The notes under the pieces were generated by a model, which saw only the letters and a list, made by a program, of their open reading frames with translations, was not told the origin of the DNA and did no database searches. A stretch of 22,324 nucleotides of DNA, from positions 1 through 22,324 of IMG/VR virus record IMGVR_UViG_3300021077_000029; one strand, 5' to 3'. Origin of the DNA: a virus. Each line of letters begins with the position of its first letter. Positions within the stretch are counted from its first letter, which is position 1. The translations under genes and the position numbers were made by a program. This document shows positions 8,925 to 20,469 of this stretch, piece after piece.

Positions 8925-9446
8925 TCAGAGCCGCCTTCCTTCAGCGATGGCCTTCCTGAGCCCGGCCGCGAACCCGACGCCGATGGCTTTGCGCAACGCA
9001 TCGAGCTTGCCCGGCCAGATGTAGCCCCGGCTCTCCATGGCGAACATCCAACGCTCCCCGAGGTGCGCTGCCGTCCAGGCCGAGCCCGTGTGGCCGGCTC
9101 CGGACTTGATGACGTGGCCCCCGCGGCCGCGGCTGACCGGCCAGGCCAGCACCTTCTTGGTTTTCGGCACGATCATCTCGTGCTTGGGTCCGTACAGGCC
9201 GGTGCCCCACAACGGGTAGCGGGCGTATTCGACCGCGATCAGCTTCATCGACAGATCCTGCACCTCGCCGTGGGCCGTCTTGCCGAGCGTGTGCGTGCGC
9301 CGGTAGGAGCTGCCGGGGGCCTGGCTCGGGTAGCGTGCGAGCTCGCGCTTGTAGGCTGCTGCCGCGTTCTCCAGGGCGTAGCGCAGGGTGCCCGGCCAGT
9401 CACGCAGCGTGGGCCCGAGGATGACTTTGACGTGCTCGCCGGGCAT
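8925..9446 (-). CDS. HK97-gp10-like / head-tail connector-type protein
   Basis: A 173-aa protein with ATG at 9446 overlapping the MuF stop as TGATG. The text resembles phage proteins of the HK97 gp10 / minor tail completion type: a long N-terminal helix (LRYALENAAAAYKREL), then YPLWGTGLYGPK, KVLAWPV and HTGSAWTAAHLGERWMFAMESRGYIWPGKLDALRKAI. The GxGxYGPK...VLAWP...RG order is typical. In the virion such proteins seal the head-tail interface or end the tail tube. It is translationally coupled to the MuF-like gene and followed by a terminator. Confidence 0.65.
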   Translation of the reverse strand: MPGEHVKVILGPTLRDWPGTLRYALENAAAAYKRELARYPSQAPGSSYRRTHTLGKTAHGEVQDLSMKLIAVEYARYPLWGTGLYGPKHEMIVPKTKKVLAWPVSRGRGGHVIKSGAGHTGSAWTAAHLGERWMFAMESRGYIWPGKLDALRKAIGVGFAAGLRKAIAEGRRL

Positions 9447-11101
9447 CAGTCTGCCTCGGCCAGAGGCTCGCCCGCACCGATAACCGGATCCACACCGTCA
9501 CTCGCGGGCGGGTTGGCTGCCACGTCCTCGTCCTCGAACCCTGCCGGGATCACGACCCACTCGCAGCGACAGTTGTGGATTATAATGCCGTTGCAAGCAA
9601 ACATGTGCCACGGTTCAGACTGGAGGTCATAGACGTGCCCGACATAACGGAAGTGCCGAATCTCACAGACCTCATCGAATCCTACATTGGCGGGGTATCG
9701 CTGAAGGAGTGCGCGGAGCGGTCCGGCATATCGCGATTCATCTTGCGTGACAGGTTCGAGAAGGAGGGCGTTACGATCCGCGACCGCTCGGGCGGGATGT
9801 ATGCCCGCATGGCTAAGACTACCAAGGCTGAGAGGCAGCGGCTGACCGCTGCTGCAAACAAGGCTGCCAGGGGCCGCACCTGCACCCGAGAAGAAAGGAC
9901 GAAGCGAGCTGCTACTATCGAGCGACTTACTCTGCGCGCGACCGACCAAGAACGCTGGTTGGCTGAACGTCTGCGGGAGACGGTTTCCTACGGCCCGCTC
10001 GTCCTCCAGAGAGCCGAGGGCATTTACAACATCGACCTCGCGGTGCTCTGCCCACCACTCGCGGTCGAGCTGTTCGGCGGCACTTGGCACACGGCACCTC
10101 GTCATGCCACGAGACAGCGCGAGCGCGTCGAATACCTGCTCGATCATGGCTGGCATCTCGTCGTCATCTGGACCGACAAGCCGCTCTGGATCGGAGCAGT
10201 AAATTACCTCGTCACCCTGCTTGATGAGCTGAGCGATTCGCCATCCGGCCCTCGTCAGTACCGCGTGATCCTTGGTGACGGCCAACCTGCGCCCCGAACG
10301 AAGACATATCTCAACTGCGAGCCCTTCGTACCGACAGCGTGTCGCCCCCGTCAATCCGGGGACGGATACGAACTGCCCCGGTAGCACGCAGCCGGGGTGG
10401 CTAGCATCCGGCGGCTGCGGTTCCTGACCGTCGATGTTGTAGGGGCTGGCCTCTGCAAGGCCGGCGCAGACCGAGCACACCACGTCGTCGTTACTGTCGT
10501 CCCACTCGCCCTGCGTCGAGCCCAGCCGTTCCCCGATGATCTGGCTCTCGGCGGTGCAGAGGCGCGTGCCCTCCGTGGTAGCGATCAGCGCAGAGCGCGA
10601 CGGGGCGAACCAACGGCCCAGGGAAGTCTCAAGCGCGGGCTGGCCGGGGTTGGCCGGGTCTGAGGCCCAGGCCATCGTCTCGCGGTGGACGGCATCGCGC
10701 ACGGTCGCGCTCACGCCCTTGAAGCCGCCCGGCACCTCGCGCTCGAAGTTCTGCACGTAGCGGTCGTAGATGTGCTCGGCCCGGACCTCATCGACCTCGT
10801 GGCCGGCATTGGCGAACCACTCGCCCTCGCCCTTGGCCAGGATCACCGACGCGGCCCGCGTACCACTGCTGAGGCCGTCCTGGATGGCGGCCTCCATGCG
10901 GTTCAGCACTTCCGGGGATAGCAGCTCGCCGTACTCGGCCTTCGCCACCTTGGCTCGTACAGACGAGAGCTGTGAGCGCAGGATCTGCCAGCCTCGCTTG
11001 TAGCCCTTGGCGGCCTCGGCCTCCAGCACGGCCCGCGCTTTCTTGCGGGCCAGCTTGACGACCAGGCGGTGCCCGGTCAGACGGGCAGGCAGCATTGCCA
11101 T
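9446..11101 (-). CDS. MuF-like head morphogenesis protein interrupted by an intein
   Basis: A 551-aa precursor. Residues 1-237 and 511-551 are the exteins, giving a 278-aa mature protein after splicing. They include VCSVCAGLAEASPYN and the junction HPG/CRCEW, which recreates the HPxCRC motif that closes MuF-type (phage Mu gpF-like) domains. Residues 238-510 are an intein (separate entry). MuF proteins sit next to the portal gene and act in head assembly or are packaged in the head; the position fits. The start could be ATG 11101 or the ATG two codons later; the SD is weak and the gene overlaps the upstream stop by 25 nt. Production of the mature protein depends on splicing, because the intein splits the conserved Cys-rich motif. 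Confidence 0.85.
   Translation of the reverse strand: MAMLPARLTGHRLVVKLARKKARAVLEAEAAKGYKRGWQILRSQLSSVRAKVAKAEYGELLSPEVLNRMEAAIQDGLSSGTRAASVILAKGEGEWFANAGHEVDEVRAEHIYDRYVQNFEREVPGGFKGVSATVRDAVHRETMAWASDPANPGQPALETSLGRWFAPSRSALIATTEGTRLCTAESQIIGERLGSTQGEWDDSNDDVVCSVCAGLAEASPYNIDGQEPQPPDASHPGCVLPGQFVSVPGLTGATRCRYEGLAVEICLRSGRRLAVTKDHAVLTRAGWRIAQLIKQGDEVIYCSDPERLVGPDDDEMPAMIEQVFDALALSRGMTRCRVPSAAEQLDREWWAEHREVDVVNALGSLEDERAVGNRLPQTFSQPAFLVGRAQSKSLDSSSSLRPFFSGAGAAPGSLVCSSGQPLPLSLGSLSHAGIHPARAVADRNALLLEPVTQDESRYAGPLRALLQRYPANVGFDEVCEIRHFRYVGHVYDLQSEPWHMFACNGIIIHNCRCEWVVIPAGFEDEDVAANPPASDGVDPVIGAGEPLAEAD
9581..9586 (+). promoter_or_regulatory. Candidate -10 box of the antisense endonuclease
   Basis: A perfect TATAAT lies 49 nt before the GTG start on the plus strand. 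No good -35 is visible at the usual distance. On the minus strand these bases are Ile codons ATT-ATA of intein block G, followed by ATC. ATA is very rare in this GC-rich window, which suggests the codon choice serves the promoter. Confidence 0.5.
9635..10384 (+). CDS. Vsr-like (EDxHD-type) homing endonuclease encoded antisense to the intein
   Basis: A 249-aa plus-strand protein. GTG 9635 is chosen because GGAGG at 9622-9626 precedes it by 8 nt; the frame is open back to GTG 9575 inside intein block G. Residues 7-50 form a helix-turn-helix module (YIGGVSLKECAERSGISR... GVTIRDRSG) seen in phage homing enzymes. A basic linker follows (residues 60-100). Residues 104-185 form a PD-(D/E)XK/Vsr-like nuclease: QERWLAERL (Glu106), YNIDLAV (Asp134), VELFGGTWH (Glu145, His152), HGWHLVVIWTDKPLW (Asp181). 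The closing YRVILGDGQPAP is common at the end of such enzymes. The size is close to that of known EDxHD homing enzymes. The TAG stop is the complement of intein Leu3. It probably cleaves intein-less MuF alleles and so spreads the intein. Confidence 0.82.
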   Translation: MPDITEVPNLTDLIESYIGGVSLKECAERSGISRFILRDRFEKEGVTIRDRSGGMYARMAKTTKAERQRLTAAANKAARGRTCTREERTKRAATIERLTLRATDQERWLAERLRETVSYGPLVLQRAEGIYNIDLAVLCPPLAVELFGGTWHTAPRHATRQRERVEYLLDHGWHLVVIWTDKPLWIGAVNYLVTLLDELSDSPSGPRQYRVILGDGQPAPRTKTYLNCEPFVPTACRPRQSGDGYELPR

Positions 11102-11331: not shown

Positions 11332-11801
11332 TGCCAGTACCGCTGCCCGAGGTGGACGAGCACGCGGTCGGCAGCAGCCGGGTCGAGACCGTCGATGATC
11401 TTCATACAGGTCTGCAAGGCGTAAGCTTCCTGCTCGGGCGGGGTGAGCGGTGCGGTCCTTATCTCACTTTTGGGCGCTTGCGGTGAATCAGGCCGGGCGC
11501 TATCTAACTCCGGTGAGGTTCCGGGCCCGATGACCTTGCTCGGGACCTTGACCGTCAGGGGCGGGCAGGAAGCTTGCTCGCAGACCTTGTGGCGCACGGG
11601 CTCGACCAGCCGGTAGCTGGCACCGCGCTTCTCAATGACGTGCCCGGCGGCGCGCAGCTCCTCGATCACAGCTTTCTGGACTGCGGCGGTGCCGGTGATA
11701 CCGAGCTTGTGGTTGTGGACAAACCCGTCGTCGCTGTCCTCACCGTGGAGGTGGCTGAGTACGGTGAGCGCTCGCGGCGAGAGGCCGGCTACCAGGGTCA
11801 C
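11328..11801 (-). CDS. Hypothetical protein with winged-helix-like N-terminus
   Basis: A 157-aa protein with ATG at 11801, overlapping the portal stop by 4 nt. Residues 1-70 look like a winged helix: SPRALTVLSHLHGE, then HNHKLGITGTAAVQKAVIEELRAAGHVIEKRGASYRLVEP, where the last part reads as recognition helix plus wing. A Pro/Ser-rich linker follows. Residues 115-157 (LTPPEQEAYALQTCMKIIDGLDPAAADRVLVHLGQRYW) form a short helical tail common in phage regulators. It may be a DNA-binding accessory. Its place inside the head operon, between portal and MuF, is unusual for a regulator. Confidence 0.65.
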   Translation of the reverse strand: MTLVAGLSPRALTVLSHLHGEDSDDGFVHNHKLGITGTAAVQKAVIEELRAAGHVIEKRGASYRLVEPVRHKVCEQASCPPLTVKVPSKVIGPGTSPELDSARPDSPQAPKSEIRTAPLTPPEQEAYALQTCMKIIDGLDPAAADRVLVHLGQRYWQ

Positions 11802-14188
11802 GACTCACCGCCCGGTTTCTGCGGAGTGCCGTCACCGACCGGGGTCTCCGTGGTCGTCGTGCTGTCGGACCCGCTCGTCCAGGTCGCGGCGGCGACAATC
11901 GGGATCCCGCCTGCCTCGATGGCAGCCACGAGCCGTTCCTGGCAGAGCTTCACGGCCTCATCCCCGACCAGGGCTGCCAGGTCAGACCACATATCGTCCC
12001 ACTTGGTGGCGTGCTTCAACGTCCAGTCCATGTCGGGGCTGAAGGGCTGGTTGGCCACCGCATCGACGAACGGGCTCATGATCGGCTTGTTCTCGACCGG
12101 GAAGAACAGGCCCTGGTCGATCAGCACGGGCCTGCGCTCGTCAGACGGATGGGTAAGCCAGTTGCCCTTGATGCCGTCACCCATGCGGCGGTCTAGGTTG
12201 CCGCCCAGGTAGTCGAGCACAGCCGCCCGCTCGACCCAGTAGGGACTGTACTCGGAGGGCGGCTGTGCAGGCTGGCGGTGGGTCACGTACATGCTGACCA
12301 CGCCGGGCTGGTCCTCGACCTTGGCCACGTAGGCCACGGGGCAGCAGTAGAGGCCGAGCGTGCGGTCCAGGATGTAGGCGGCGGCGTCGCCCAGGTACTG
12401 CGGATGCCCGACGCGCTCGATGAGCTTGGGATTCTCGTCGGCGTAGGGCTTCCAGATCCCGGTACGCGGCTCCTTGCCTTCCGGCACCAGGGCCACGATG
12501 TAGACCCCGTTCGCGTGCCCGCCGAAGGGCACCTCCAGGGTAGCGTTCGGGGCGGCCAGCGGAGCGCCGTAGTAGTCGTCGTCGCCCTCGTCCACGCCGC
12601 AGATCTTCTTGACGGCCAGCTCGTGACGTCCGAGGGATTTGCTGGCCGATGAGGGTTTACTGCGGGAGCGGGGAGCCGAGGTCGTTTTGCCGGGGCTCAG
12701 GGTGCCCTCACCGATGATGCGTGCCGCCAGCTTGGTGTCCTGGCTGGACGGCGTGGACTGCCCGTCGTAGGCCGCAGGAGAGATCGAGCCGTCGGTCGTG
12801 CTGCTGCCGGTGGAGGAGCTGTCCCCGGTAGCGACCTGGCTGGCCGGGTCGGTCGACTTGGCCCCCTTCGTGAGCCAGTCGCTGATGTTGGTGATGCCGT
12901 TGTTGCGGATCACGCAGAGGATGTCGCCCCCCGGCAGCTTCTCCTGGCCGACTGCGGCGCGGGCCTCGTTCAAGGTGATCAGCCCCCCGGCGAACTGCGT
13001 GACGGCGGCGGTCTGCATGGATGCCGGGTCGAGCCCCTGGGTGGGAAGCTGGAGCTCAAAGATCACGTCGTTGCCGCCGCCGACTGCGCGGATGAACTCG
13101 CGGCAGGCGCGCTGGAGGTACATCTGGAGGGGCCCGAGCCCGATGCGGTAGAAGGTCTGCGTGGCCATGTCCATGAAGCCCTTGCCGCCCAGGCCCTTGC
13201 CCGGCGTGTCGCCCAGCTCAGACGGGGGCACGCCGCAGGCCAGGCCGAGCCGGTGGTAGCAGACATCGTAGAGCTGCTGGGGGAAGTCCGGCTTCTTGGT
13301 CGGGATGAAGAACGGCTTGAACGGCACGACCTTGATACGGCTGCGCTCTTCCAAGCTGCCTGCCCTCATGGTGCTGTTGAAAAGCTGTTCCCACTGTTCG
13401 ACCTGAGCCGGGGTCAGTTGCTCCTCGCCGTCCTGGCCGAGGATCCCTTCCGGCATGTTGCCTTCGCGGTAGTGCGCAAGCTCGAAGCCGTTGATGTTGG
13501 CCAGGATGAGGCAGGCCGTCCATGCCTCCTCGATGGGGCTCATGCCATACGGCGCGTTGTAGCGCGGCCAGCGCGGGCGGTACCAGATCTTCGAGCGGTC
13601 GAACCAGTTGAACGGCATGCCGTGGATGATCTGCACGAAGGCCGGCTCCGGGGGTTTCGGTGTGTGCCCGTGGGCGTCGATCAGGGTGAAGATCGTGGTG
13701 CCGTCGATGTACTCCAGGGCCTTATCGTCCATGTTCCAGCCCAGGCAGCCCGAGTCGAAGACCACGGCGTTCTGGATGAAGCGCGTGGCCCACACGTCGA
13801 AACCGAGATCGCGGTCCGGGGAACGCAGGAACCACTCCCAGGCCGGGTCTTGGCTCACGTCGTTGCCCTTCGAGTCGTGCAGGGACGGCGTGAAGATGAG
13901 GAACTCCTTGCAGAGCATGTGGACGATGTGCTTCAGCTCGTCCAGGGTCTCCCAGGCCAGCGCCAGGGCGTTGAACGGCATCAGGCCGTAGCTCGTGCGG
14001 GGTGAGATCGTGGCGTTGACGTTGGGCGGGTAGTCGATGGCGCGGGGGAAGTCCTCTTCCCAGGGCTTCGACGTGGGGCGTATCGGCGTGCCGGGCCCGT
14101 AGAGGGTCTGCTGCCAGGATGCGGGGGTGGGCTGCTCGTTCAGCGGCTTTGGCCGGAACAGCTTACTGACAGGATCGAAGAAGCCCAT
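11798..14188 (-). CDS. Portal protein fused to a PI3/4-kinase-like C-terminal domain
   Basis: A 796-aa protein with ATG at 14188. Residues about 60-440 are a phage portal: NGFELAHYREGNMPEGIL, GVPPSELGD, the TFYRIGLGPLQMYLQR helix and the LITLNEARAAVGQEKLPGGD ending used by many portals. A Ser/Thr-rich linker (450-520) follows. Residues 555-770 look like a PI3/4-kinase-like or SCO1664-like fold: GIWKPY (Lys580, nucleotide-binding candidate), DAAAYILDRTLG, VSMYV (hinge), AVLDYLGGNLDRR (Asp666, catalytic-loop candidate), NWLTHP, and RRPVLIDQGLFFP (Asp691, metal-binding DxG). The portal would form the dodecameric DNA gate at the head vertex. The extra domain could modify a host or virion molecule. 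The total length is far above the usual 400-550 aa. Confidence 0.85.
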   Translation of the reverse strand: MGFFDPVSKLFRPKPLNEQPTPASWQQTLYGPGTPIRPTSKPWEEDFPRAIDYPPNVNATISPRTSYGLMPFNALALAWETLDELKHIVHMLCKEFLIFTPSLHDSKGNDVSQDPAWEWFLRSPDRDLGFDVWATRFIQNAVVFDSGCLGWNMDDKALEYIDGTTIFTLIDAHGHTPKPPEPAFVQIIHGMPFNWFDRSKIWYRPRWPRYNAPYGMSPIEEAWTACLILANINGFELAHYREGNMPEGILGQDGEEQLTPAQVEQWEQLFNSTMRAGSLEERSRIKVVPFKPFFIPTKKPDFPQQLYDVCYHRLGLACGVPPSELGDTPGKGLGGKGFMDMATQTFYRIGLGPLQMYLQRACREFIRAVGGGNDVIFELQLPTQGLDPASMQTAAVTQFAGGLITLNEARAAVGQEKLPGGDILCVIRNNGITNISDWLTKGAKSTDPASQVATGDSSSTGSSTTDGSISPAAYDGQSTPSSQDTKLAARIIGEGTLSPGKTTSAPRSRSKPSSASKSLGRHELAVKKICGVDEGDDDYYGAPLAAPNATLEVPFGGHANGVYIVALVPEGKEPRTGIWKPYADENPKLIERVGHPQYLGDAAAYILDRTLGLYCCPVAYVAKVEDQPGVVSMYVTHRQPAQPPSEYSPYWVERAAVLDYLGGNLDRRMGDGIKGNWLTHPSDERRPVLIDQGLFFPVENKPIMSPFVDAVANQPFSPDMDWTLKHATKWDDMWSDLAALVGDEAVKLCQERLVAAIEAGGIPIVAAATWTSGSDSTTTTETPVGDGTPQKPGGES

Positions 14189-18178: not shown

Positions 18179-18358
18179 ATGGCCGACCTTCTCAAGCCGC
18201 AGGACGTCGCCCGCCTGCTCGGCGTGAACCCGCGCACGGTCAAGCGGTGGGCAGAGTCGGGCAAGCTCCCGGGCGCATTTCGGACGCCTGGCGGGCATTG
18301 GCGGATTCCAGAGTCAGCGGTCATGGCAGTATCCCAGCCTCTCGAGCCAGGTACGTGA
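18179..18358 (+). CDS. MerR/excisionase-type HTH protein
   Basis: A 59-aa plus-strand protein from ATG 18179, one nt after the previous stop. The whole protein is a helix_turn_helix_17-like domain: LLKPQDVARLLGVNPRTVKR, WAESGKLPGAFRTPGGHWRIP. The wing FRTPGGHWRI is typical of excisionase and BldC-like DNA-binding proteins. It could be a regulator or a recombination directionality factor. Its 3' end overlaps the end of the opposite-strand dcm C-terminal gene by 38 bp, so the two transcripts would collide. Confidence 0.82.
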   Translation: MADLLKPQDVARLLGVNPRTVKRWAESGKLPGAFRTPGGHWRIPESAVMAVSQPLEPGT

Positions 18359-19193
18359 ACGCCGCCGCCATGCACTGAGGCACCTGTCCGTTACCAAGCG
18401 CTCGCAGTCGGTCCACCCGCGAGGGGACTCCTATCGCAACACGGGCGATGCCAGCTTCCCAGGAGCCGTCATACCAAGCCGCTTGGCCGTAGCGTGAAGG
18501 AACCTGTGACAGCGGGTGCAGAGCGTCTGTAGGTTCTCTGGCGTCAGGTTCGTGATGTCCTTGTCGGCATGGTGGACATGGAGTTCCGTCGTCGTCCCGC
18601 ACGCCGCACACTGACTCTCGCGGTGTTTCCGCGCCCTCCAGAGCCACCCTTGCCGACCGATCTCCGTCCGGGCGTTCGCACACCTTAGACCGCAATACTT
18701 CCGATGAGAGAACGCCAGATTGCTCTCTAGCGTCCCCTTGTAGCGCTTCCGCGTCATCGGCTTTCCGCACCGCTCGCACGTCTTCGGCGTCTCCTGCTTG
18801 CGCTCCAAGGTGGTCCTCTCTGTTGCGCATTAGCCACTCCTCGAAGTCTACCATATCAGGAGCCACTAATGCGGTCCAGCGAAGCGGCCAGCCCATGAGA
18901 AGTTCCACCCAATCCGGTGAGAGTGAGCCAGGCTTCGACTCGCTGTGCGCCACCTGTTCGTTCAGCGGCCGACTGTTGCGCTCCATCGTCTCCTGACTCG
19001 CCTTGCCGTTCTTCCAGTCCCGCGCCGAAGCCGTCGCCCACGTCTGCGGGGTCGAAGCGCCACGGGCTACCCGCGCCGCGATCGCCTGCCCCGTCAGGTG
19101 CGACTCGTCCGTCATCCCCGGATGCTCGCCGTAGATGGCTCGCGGAGTAAGCCAGTATCCACAGCCGCTTGCGTCGATGTGGGGCGCCGACAT
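18321..19193 (-). CDS. C5-cytosine methyltransferase, C-terminal part (target recognition, motifs IX-X)
   Basis: This minus-strand frame lies one base off the catalytic half. The ATG at 19193 (with GGGAG six nt upstream) is the best internal start, giving 290 aa, but no start is certain. Features in order are YWLTPRAIYGEHPG, SARDWKNGKAS and NSRPLNEQV, then LSPDWVELLMGWPLRWT, which are phage dcm target-recognition text. The end, GIARVAIGVPSRVDRLRALG then NGQVPQC, is motif IX/X. About 110 codons in between are the alternate-frame reading of a nested HNH gene. Either the locus makes a two-subunit enzyme like M.AquI, or a 1-nt shift near 19167-19140 broke one gene. Confidence 0.68.
   Translation of the reverse strand: MSAPHIDASGCGYWLTPRAIYGEHPGMTDESHLTGQAIAARVARGASTPQTWATASARDWKNGKASQETMERNSRPLNEQVAHSESKPGSLSPDWVELLMGWPLRWTALVAPDMVDFEEWLMRNREDHLGAQAGDAEDVRAVRKADDAEALQGDAREQSGVLSSEVLRSKVCERPDGDRSARVALEGAETPRESVCGVRDDDGTPCPPCRQGHHEPDAREPTDALHPLSQVPSRYGQAAWYDGSWEAGIARVAIGVPSRVDRLRALGNGQVPQCMAAAFTYLAREAGILP
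18431..18808 (-). CDS. HNH endonuclease nested in dcm C-terminal frame
   Basis: A 125-aa protein from TTG 18808, with GAGAGGA as SD. A first zinc knuckle is formed by CERCGKPM (Cys11, Cys14) and YCGLRCANA (Cys39, Cys43). The HNH domain has CAAC (Cys67, Cys70), ELHVHH (His79/80), TNLTPENLQTLC (Asn92) and CTRCHRFLH (Cys97, Cys100, His101, His105). It is a small free-standing homing-type nuclease. It lies in the same strand but a different frame from dcm, placed between the LMGWP motif and motif IX, and the dcm frame stays open through it. Confidence 0.85.
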   Translation of the reverse strand: MERKQETPKTCERCGKPMTRKRYKGTLESNLAFSHRKYCGLRCANARTEIGRQGWLWRARKHRESQCAACGTTTELHVHHADKDITNLTPENLQTLCTRCHRFLHATAKRLGMTAPGKLASPVLR

Positions 19194-19710
19194 CGTCTGC
19201 TCCCAGCACGCACCACTCCGCATCGAACCCCGCTTCGGCCAAGTCTCCGAGAACGGTTCCGAAGTAGCCGCTGCTGAGAAGTCCAGGCACGTTCTCGAAG
19301 AATCCCAGCGGCGCTCCGCTTTCTCGTAGAACGCGAACGGCGTGTGGCCACATGTTGCGCGGGTCGTCTTCCCCGAGCCGTTTCCCGGCCTGCGAGAACG
19401 GCTGGCATGGAAAGCCGCCGGTGACGATGTCGCAGGAGTCGGGGACGGGGTGGAAGTCTCGAACATCGCTGTGGCAGGGAACGTCGGGAAATCGGGCGGA
19501 GAGCACGCGCTGGCAGTAGGCATCCCACTCAACTGCTGCTGTGAGGTGCCATCCGAGGAGCATGGAGCCGAGCAACCCTCCCCCACTGCCGGAGAACAAG
19601 CTGAGTTCACGGAGTCCTGCCGTTTCACTTCCTCGCCCAAAACCGCCCCCCCCCGTTCCTGGTTTGCGGCTGCCGGGGTTCCCGGCTCGTGGTGTAGGCC
19701 ACTTCTTCAT
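18856..19710 (-). CDS. C5-cytosine DNA methyltransferase, catalytic part (motifs I-VIII)
   Basis: A 284-aa frame from ATG 19710, which overlaps the HNH stop as ATGA. After a leader (KKWPTPRAGNPGSRKPGTGG) that reads like a piece of a phage dcm recognition domain, the catalytic motifs follow. They are motif I LSLFSGSGG (36-44), motif IV GGFPCQPFSQAG with nucleophile Cys102, motif VI FFENVPGLL (Glu139) and motif VIII GAPHRRKRLWILA (175-187). Past residue 188 the frame leaves the family and ends without motifs IX-X, which lie in the neighbouring frame (18321-19193). It would methylate phage DNA to evade restriction. A 9-G run lies in the leader. Confidence 0.8.
   Translation of the reverse strand: MKKWPTPRAGNPGSRKPGTGGGGFGRGSETAGLRELSLFSGSGGGLLGSMLLGWHLTAAVEWDAYCQRVLSARFPDVPCHSDVRDFHPVPDSCDIVTGGFPCQPFSQAGKRLGEDDPRNMWPHAVRVLRESGAPLGFFENVPGLLSSGYFGTVLGDLAEAGFDAEWCVLGADDVGAPHRRKRLWILAYSASHLRRASGDDGRVAPDGAGDRGAGSPWRFDPADVGDGFGAGLEERQGESGDDGAQQSAAERTGGAQRVEAWLTLTGLGGTSHGLAASLDRISGS
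19646..19654 (-). repeat. Nine-base poly-G tract in the dcm leader
   Basis: A run of nine G on the coding strand sits 22 codons into the methyltransferase frame, just before motif I. With nine G the leader is in frame with motif I. With eight, the leader text continues as GGAVLGEEVKR in the frame of the C-terminal half. Such tracts slip readily during replication or sequencing. Confidence 0.7.
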
Positions 19711-20225
19711 CCATGCCGCCCACCGAAGTTGTCCTGCTTGTGATCGTGCTTCCAGTGGCAAGAGCGGCACATGCGGACGTAGTCGGTCAGGTTCGCGTAG
19801 TCGCCCGTGATGTTGGCCCAGTCATAGGCGCGGCGCTTGTCGGTCGCGCCGCAGACATCACACTTCTGCGGCGTACCGAAGCGGCGGTCCAGGCGGCGAT
19901 GCATCTTGCCGATGCTGGCGTCATCTCCACGCCAGTTGGCGTTCGCCTCGCCCCACTGGTTGCGAGGGATGGCCGGCCGGATCGTGACGCCGCCTCTGTT
20001 GAGGACGCCCGTGATCGCCTTGCGGCTGACCCCGTATCGGTCGGCCAGTTCTTGCAGTGATGACCCAGCGACGTAGAACGAGCAGATGGCGGCCTCGTCC
20101 AAGATGAGACGCAGGGACTCCGACTTGGCCTTGCGCCACTCAGGCGTGCAGCGGCGCTTGGCGGACTCGGACATACGGCGTCGAGTCTCAGGGGAAATAC
20201 GGGGGGTGCTATCATCAGAGCGCAT
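19707..20225 (-). CDS. HNH homing endonuclease with HTH domain
   Basis: A 172-aa protein. ATG 20225 is preceded by GGAGG with a 4-nt gap; the longer frame upstream crosses the promoter and is rejected. Residues 10-35 are a NUMOD3-like stretch (SPETRRRMSESAKRR). Residues 40-84 are a helix-turn-helix (FYVAGSSLQELADRYGVSRK, GGVTIR), closely alike in layout to the module of the intein-associated nuclease. The HNH domain has CDVCGATD (Cys122, Cys125), AYDWAN, NLTDYVRMC and RSCHWKHDHK (Cys153, Cys156, His157, His160). It has its own promoter and hairpin leader, and sits within the dcm 5' end. Confidence 0.88.
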   Translation of the reverse strand: MRSDDSTPRISPETRRRMSESAKRRCTPEWRKAKSESLRLILDEAAICSFYVAGSSLQELADRYGVSRKAITGVLNRGGVTIRPAIPRNQWGEANANWRGDDASIGKMHRRLDRRFGTPQKCDVCGATDKRRAYDWANITGDYANLTDYVRMCRSCHWKHDHKQDNFGGRHG

Positions 20226-20249
20226 CGGACCTCCAGTGTCCGTTGCCAC

Positions 20250-20277
20250 GCCCCCGGAGTTTGCCGCTCGCGGGGGC
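20250..20277 (-). other. Leader hairpin of the HNH gene
   Basis: A 7-bp perfect stem (GCCCCCG and CGGGGGC) lies between the -10 box and the HNH ribosome binding site on the minus strand. It is not followed by a U-tract in that direction. It probably shapes the 5' leader of the HNH transcript, or shields the gene from read-through translation. Confidence 0.45.
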
Positions 20278-20286
20278 CTTTCGATG

Positions 20287-20295
20287 ATTATAGCA
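20287..20295 (-). promoter_or_regulatory. Extended -10 promoter of the HNH gene
   Basis: TGCTATAAT on the minus strand is a perfect extended -10 element, about 60 nt before the HNH start. It begins immediately after the last dcm-like codon of the orphan 5' end. Extended -10 promoters need no -35, and none is seen. The AT-rich element stands out in GC-rich surroundings. Confidence 0.65.
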
Positions 20296-20337
20296 CGCGC
20301 CGCCGGCTCCGGTGAAGAGGGAGAGTTCACGCATGAT

Positions 20338-20469
20338 TCATCGTCCATCGCGGTACTGCTCTGCGCTGAGGCGGTCAGGCATGGCTCTGGGTGCGGCGCT
20401 TGAGGTCGGCCAGCCACCGGCTTCCACGCTTCTTCGAGGGGCGGTCAGGGCGTCGGTCAGGTCAGACAC
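20338..20469 (-). CDS. Small hypothetical 43-aa protein
   Basis: It starts at GTG 20469, overlapping the upstream stop by 8 nt, with a near-perfect AAGGAGG six nt before the start. The product (SDLTDALTAPRRSVEAGGWP...) is polar and basic, without a recognisable domain. Its stop lies 3 nt before the ATG of the orphan dcm 5' end. This suggests it was once the coupling gene in front of dcm. Confidence 0.5.
   Translation of the reverse strand: MSDLTDALTAPRRSVEAGGWPTSSAAPRAMPDRLSAEQYRDGR

Follow-up and report, generated by a model that had tools for sequence, protein, structure and literature searches.

An antisense homing endonuclease-like gene within the intein of a phage MuF-like head gene

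The locus described here lies in a 22-kb metagenomic viral record (IMG/VR IMGVR_UViG_3300021077_000029), the whole 22,324 nucleotides of which were analysed and are referred to as the window. On the minus strand, a MuF-like gene is interrupted by an intein, opposite which the plus strand carries a gene for a protein resembling homing endonucleases (Table 1). The product of the host gene matches the head protein family PHROG 15127 (5e-14), homologous intein-bearing genes are annotated as MuF or head morphogenesis genes, and the neighbours in the window are portal, terminase and protease genes. The portal ORF (11798-14188, minus strand; 796 aa) has a long C-terminal extension. Further along the same strand, two overlapping frames at 18321-19770 resemble the N-terminal and the C-terminal portion of a C5 cytosine methyltransferase, possibly separated by a frameshift, and 19707-20417 encodes an apparent free-standing HNH endonuclease with a helix-turn-helix (HTH) domain, to which the intein nuclease has a weak secondary match.

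Table 1 Features of the intein-bearing locus in the window. The caret marks the insertion point.
Feature	Position	Strand	Basis or remark
MuF-like minor capsid / head morphogenesis gene, intein host	9446..11101	-	ORF, 551 aa
N-extein of MuF-like gene	10391-11101	-	
C-extein of MuF-like gene	9446-9571	-	
Intein, 273 aa, between codons at HPG^CRC	9572..10390	-	Pfam Intein_splicing, E=1.2e-11
Block A catalytic Cys1 (TGC)	10388..10390	-	sequence
Block B TxxH (TKDH)	10265..10276	-	sequence
Block F HVYDL; codons opposite the nuclease start codon and Shine-Dalgarno	9623..9637	-	
Block G NGIIIHN, then Cys+1	9572..9592	-	sequence
Central sense spacer, about residues 100-225, predicted mostly disordered, kept open, opposite nuclease domains	9716..10093	-	
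Homing-endonuclease-like gene, GTG start, TAG stop, 249 aa, HTH plus Vsr/EDxHD-like nuclease	9635..10384	+	
HTH region, residues 10-61	9662..9817	+	AlphaFold2 helices; HTH families in homologues
Nuclease domain, residues 104-213	9944..10273	+	profile and fold searches
Invariant YNxD, D134	10034-10036	+	homologue alignment
Invariant E145	10067-10069	+	homologue alignment
GGAGGT (Shine-Dalgarno), 7 nt upstream of GTG; block F codons in reverse complement	9622..9627	+	
TATAAT (-10 like) opposite block G	9581..9586	+	p=0.017 at window locus

An initial sequence-only reading had placed an intein with all its splicing blocks on the minus strand inside the MuF-like gene, and its coordinates hold: blocks A, B, F and G, Cys1, the TxxH motif, the C-terminal HN and the Cys at +1 are all present, and the Pfam splicing profile is matched. 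Across homologue alignments Cys1, TxxH and the C-terminal Asn are almost invariant, and T39 and H42 of block B are invariant. AlphaFold2 folds the two ends of the sense intein into a HINT domain with pLDDT mostly above 90, for which the best Foldseek match is the Mtu RecA intein and the top matches are all inteins, and gives the middle a pLDDT mostly of 39-69, about 45. No group I or group II ribozyme core was matched in Rfam at the gathering threshold in the window or in three homologous loci (L001, L007 and L014), and on this ground an intron reading was rejected.

The plus-strand frame is open over 9575-10384 and ends in a TAG at 10382-10384. The sequence-only reading had taken this entire interval as the nuclease frame; its openness was borne out, but the start most likely lies at the GTG at 9635, behind the GGAGGT at 9622-9627, rather than at 9575. 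The register is exact, with every intein codon the reverse complement of a nuclease codon. The proposal that the plus strand encodes an HTH and a 'Vsr-like' endonuclease gained support from profile and fold searches. In addition to the HTH, the ORF matches REase_MTES_1575 (2.5e-6, below Pfam's own cut-off), and its HMM profile hits include 3hrl (DUF559) and the I-Bth0305I catalytic domain (3r3p), that protein being an EDxHD homing endonuclease. The top Foldseek match of the predicted structure is Vsr (1cw0; prob 0.95, E 0.04), which we regard as supportive rather than decisive. The AlphaFold2 model, built with 69 homologues in which YNxD and the subsequent E are invariant, has a mean pLDDT of 88 and is disordered only at residues 232-249, which stand opposite the intein start. 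Many nucleases of other loci (L003, L006, L009-L015 and others) carry a second N-terminal HTH, with which the intein grows to about 320 residues instead of about 270, both frames lengthening together.

Searching with the plus-strand protein (tblastn) matched 107 phage records, and 116 at E<=0.01; scans of IMG/VR contributed 80 loci kept of 187 plus 52 additional loci, and bacterial genomes contributed 9. Carriers include Salmonella and Escherichia Guernseyvirinae, phages of Pseudomonas, Klebsiella, Vibrio, Edwardsiella, Aggregatibacter (Aaphi23), Gordonia, Mycobacterium and Rhodococcus, and a Helicobacter prophage. Among the matches listed, the nuclease overlies a gene annotated as head or minor capsid or as hypothetical protein; inspection of the fetched loci showed the match to run antiparallel to that gene. 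The public records inspected are annotated without the nuclease, and the two-strand arrangement has apparently been overlooked by database annotation. In nearly all cases the insertion is at the HPN^C[RK]C motif of MuF, with other positions in MuF used in L008, L015, L217 and L249. Homologues keeping only one of the two frames would have argued against the sequence-only reading; among the 157 nuclease loci, however, the opposite frame is open through the match in 155, and N- and C-terminal splicing HMM matches flank the nuclease in 148. As the sense ORF is thus continuous through the nuclease rather than split into two ORFs, a split-intein reading was rejected. A query with the first 73 residues of the intein recovered the antisense nuclease in 80 of 80 kept loci, in the same register in 79, and in every locus carrying both units the nuclease lies on the opposite strand rather than in frame between blocks B and F. 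This association of about 100% is not an unbiased frequency, since sampling used either the nuclease or an intein region overlapping it: the N-terminal query region stands opposite the nuclease C-terminus, and the resulting 80-locus set overlaps the nuclease-found sets.

Departures from the common arrangement were also seen. In Acinetobacter phage IME285 (L153:455-1348) the homologous nuclease is free-standing and convergent with a MuF gene with an intact empty site, possibly as an ancestral or an escaped form; a free-standing nuclease also occurs in P1068. A single indel shifts both frames in L103. Seventeen loci have a nuclease-frame stop within the tblastn match, which in L016 and L017 is upstream of the start codon. 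In L137 and L138 the nuclease frame looks truncated (171 aa from the usual start) beside an intact intein frame, perhaps representing a degenerating endonuclease in a homing cycle.

The openness of the plus frame was rejected as evidence by itself, being not significant in this GC-rich window: at 66% GC only about one sense stop is expected opposite the nuclease, and numerous long antisense ORFs occur elsewhere in the window. Significance was therefore drawn from the homologues. Across 92 representatives, no sense stop was seen opposite Leu and Ser codons of the nuclease, against about 470 expected, and the frame opposite the free-standing nuclease of IME285 contains 12 stops. Together with the tblastn matches, the opposite frame open in 155 of 157 loci and the shift in substitution pattern described below, this confirms coding on both strands as more than a chance feature.

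Signals for expression of the nuclease appear to be embedded in the splicing codons. Among 130 loci, the nuclease start opposite the block F His is ATG in 107 and GTG in 15. This His is written as CAT, giving an antisense ATG, in a ratio of 74:11, compared with 276:479 in the exteins (p=1e-19), and the block F Leu is CTC in 70 of 85 cases compared with 963 of 4036 in the exteins (p=5e-29), supplying the antisense GAG of the Shine-Dalgarno GGAGGT; a Shine-Dalgarno-like match is present in 83 of the 92 representatives. Opposite block G, many members have promoter-like elements, TGnTATAAT or TTGACA-N17-TATAAT, the latter at a fixed distance in several members, the end of its -10 being 26 bases upstream of the start. 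Compared with synonymous recodings drawn from the codon usage of the exteins at the same locus, such elements are in excess in 52 of 92 loci at p<0.05 (Fisher 4e-50), a result that a differing base composition of the intein could inflate. In the window the TATAAT is built from the Ile codons ATT-ATA, which are rare there (ATC 151, ATT 5, ATA 2). Scanning the window for consensus promoters gave no -35/-10 pair, only this lone TATAAT without a -35, so that the promoter claim is carried by the recoding test across the family, and the window's own sequence gives a modest signal (p=0.017).

An important question is whether selection acts on both frames. Because no close relative of the window was found, and single-protein IMG/VR scans with its own proteins found nothing, selection was measured only in relatives, by counting substitutions at the three sense codon positions, the first of which pairs with the antisense wobble position. 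Between Escherichia phage Snoke and SE1, substitutions at positions 1/2/3 number 58/37/143 in the extein and 61/13/25 in the intein middle. Over 14 separate pairs, the ratio of position 1 to position 3 is 724:1339 in the exteins vs. 976:614 in the intein middle (Fisher 1e-56), the position-1 excess in the middle being present in 14 of 14 pairs, and amino acid identity in the middle is 0.72 for the antisense and 0.56 for the sense product, with the exteins reversed. Along the intein, the first 20 codons are of the sense type (11/7/37 per 100), codons 20-60 are constrained in both frames, the middle is of the antisense type (39/15/23 per 100), a zone about 40-20 codons from the C-terminus is mixed and dual-coded, and the last 20 codons are again of the sense type (6/3/28 and 11/9/30 per 100). 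The sequence-only reading had called for a comparison of this kind in homologues, and the substitution patterns show purifying selection on both strands. Its statement that both coding units occupy the same bases stands, with the refinement that dual constraint is not uniform along the overlap: judged from substitutions, the middle is mainly antisense-constrained and the outer splicing blocks mainly sense-constrained.

These patterns bear on two rival explanations. The plus frame could be a by-product of GC-rich codon-on-codon antisense, the sense middle being the real functional domain, as the abundance of long antisense ORFs in the window and the low number of expected stops would allow. We consider this extremely improbable, given that the middle changes at position 1 rather than position 3 in all pairs, that nuclease-family similarity and a confident fold are found on the plus strand only, that the arrangement is retained in phages of 35-45% GC, and that codon choice is biased at the nuclease start and Shine-Dalgarno. 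Conversely, the intein could be dead, with its splicing motifs as fossils and its sense frame open solely through antisense constraint. The sense middle, predicted to be disordered and following the antisense constraint, would fit such a relic, but the position-3-dominated evolution of the outermost 20 codons at either end, the near-invariance of Cys1, TxxH and Asn, the lack of sense stops that an antisense gene would tolerate (as the 12 opposite the free-standing relative attest) and the structural role of the host gene make it very unlikely.

The search for intein-containing and empty MuF alleles, which the sequence-only reading had proposed, yielded both in Guernseyvirinae relatives of the element, the window's own allele having no close relative. 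Filled and empty versions of HPN^CRS occur there, and the exact empty site is present in many Guernseyvirinae, e.g. phage GRNsp50, with MuF proteins 95-99% identical. Between Snoke and vB_StyS-sam the intein is 4.3% diverged and its flanks 32% and 21%, and between SE1 and W5 the intein is 0.5% diverged and its flanks 12% and 14%. As the inteins are far less diverged than their flanks, they have moved between diverged phages, and such transfer, read here from sequence divergence, is what homing predicts. The antisense nuclease could nevertheless serve something other than homing, for example as a DNA-binding regulator or as an exclusion nuclease directed against other phages. The protein has one or two HTH domains, and its nuclease activity and target are predictions; against this, the D and E of the Vsr/EDxHD active site are invariant, the gene is located inside an intein, the element is polymorphic for presence and has been transferred between diverged phages, and its relative I-Bth0305I is a homing endonuclease. 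We therefore regard a regulatory or exclusion role in place of homing as unlikely, and exclusion could be an extra effect of homing.

Taken together, the element is very probably a mobile MuF-gene intein whose splicing domain and homing endonuclease are encoded on opposite strands, as the sequence-only reading had proposed; homologues that keep both frames, each under purifying selection, favour that proposal. From these data we infer splicing, promoter use, cleavage, target and homing as follows. The MuF transcript would be translated straight across the intein, which would be excised by its terminal HINT segments (blocks A/B and F/G), the middle being merely a tolerated spacer. A separate antisense transcript would begin at a promoter within the C-terminal intein codons, and translation from the Shine-Dalgarno and start codon opposite block F would yield the HTH and Vsr/EDxHD nuclease. 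During mixed infection the nuclease would cut intein-free MuF alleles at the HPN^CRC codons, and repair of the cut would copy the whole element into the empty allele.

Several known systems share parts of this design. Fractured genes, reportedly described by Dassa et al. in 2009, are said to contain split inteins whose two halves are separated by a free-standing gene for a Vsr-like endonuclease; as here, an endonuclease of the Vsr/EDxHD group forms its own gene between intein halves, but host gene and intein lie in two frames, whereas the sense frame of the present element is continuous and its endonuclease antisense. Canonical mobile inteins, such as those in mycobacteriophage TerL (PMC5050341), carry a LAGLIDADG or HNH endonuclease in frame and have in common with our element the HINT domain, in-frame insertion at a conserved site, an endonuclease inside the element, empty alleles and horizontal transfer; unlike in these, the endonuclease of the window is a separate opposite-strand gene that has start signals of its own, and the middle of the sense chain is a spacer. 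ShiLan, a hidden HNH insertion in phage methylases (PMC11855218), likewise hides an endonuclease in an alternative frame of an insertion that is open in the host frame, but on the same strand and without a splicing domain or ribosome-binding site, whereas the window element uses the opposite strand and has both a splicing domain and a Shine-Dalgarno. Nuclear rDNA group I introns with antisense homing endonuclease genes, such as Didymium S956-2 (PMC13182076), also place the endonuclease opposite the host gene inside a self-splicing element; these are RNA introns with little dual coding pressure, in contrast to a protein-level element with both strands protein-coding. I-Bth0305I, an EDxHD homing endonuclease of a group I intron (PDB 3r3p; family in PMC3943268), and the Vsr/DUF559 nucleases share the fold and key acidic residues with the window nuclease, but not one of these known relatives is encoded opposite an intein. 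The Snoke intein was published without mention of an antisense gene (PMC6776784), and later notes describe such inteins as unusual (PMC11162368). An antisense endonuclease in an intein was not found in the literature readable to us, and a 2025 preprint on actinophage inteins (Gosselin et al., 10.1101/2025.01.02.630785) may overlap with this work.

It is likely, with somewhat less assurance than for the element itself, that these loci form a large, essentially unannotated and previously undescribed class of phage inteins, nearly always at or near the MuF HPN^CRC site, in which block F/G codons double as the start, Shine-Dalgarno and promoter of an antisense homing endonuclease, and about 820-1000 bases encode, in exact codon register, a protein-splicing element on one strand and the enzyme for its mobility on the other. 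If true, this would be a new intein architecture, with splicing and mobility as fully overlapping opposite-strand genes, and an unusually compact mobile element. It would also be a natural example, repeated many times over, of extended sense-antisense dual coding whose constraint is legible strand by strand at single-base resolution, with relevance to the origin and persistence of overlapping genes; the H-V-Y-[DN]-L codons of block F, which when reversed already resemble a ribosome-binding site and start codon, suggest a route of origin. Finally, because the records inspected are annotated without the nuclease, homing may be overlooked in well-known Salmonella, E. coli, Pseudomonas and Gordonia phages.
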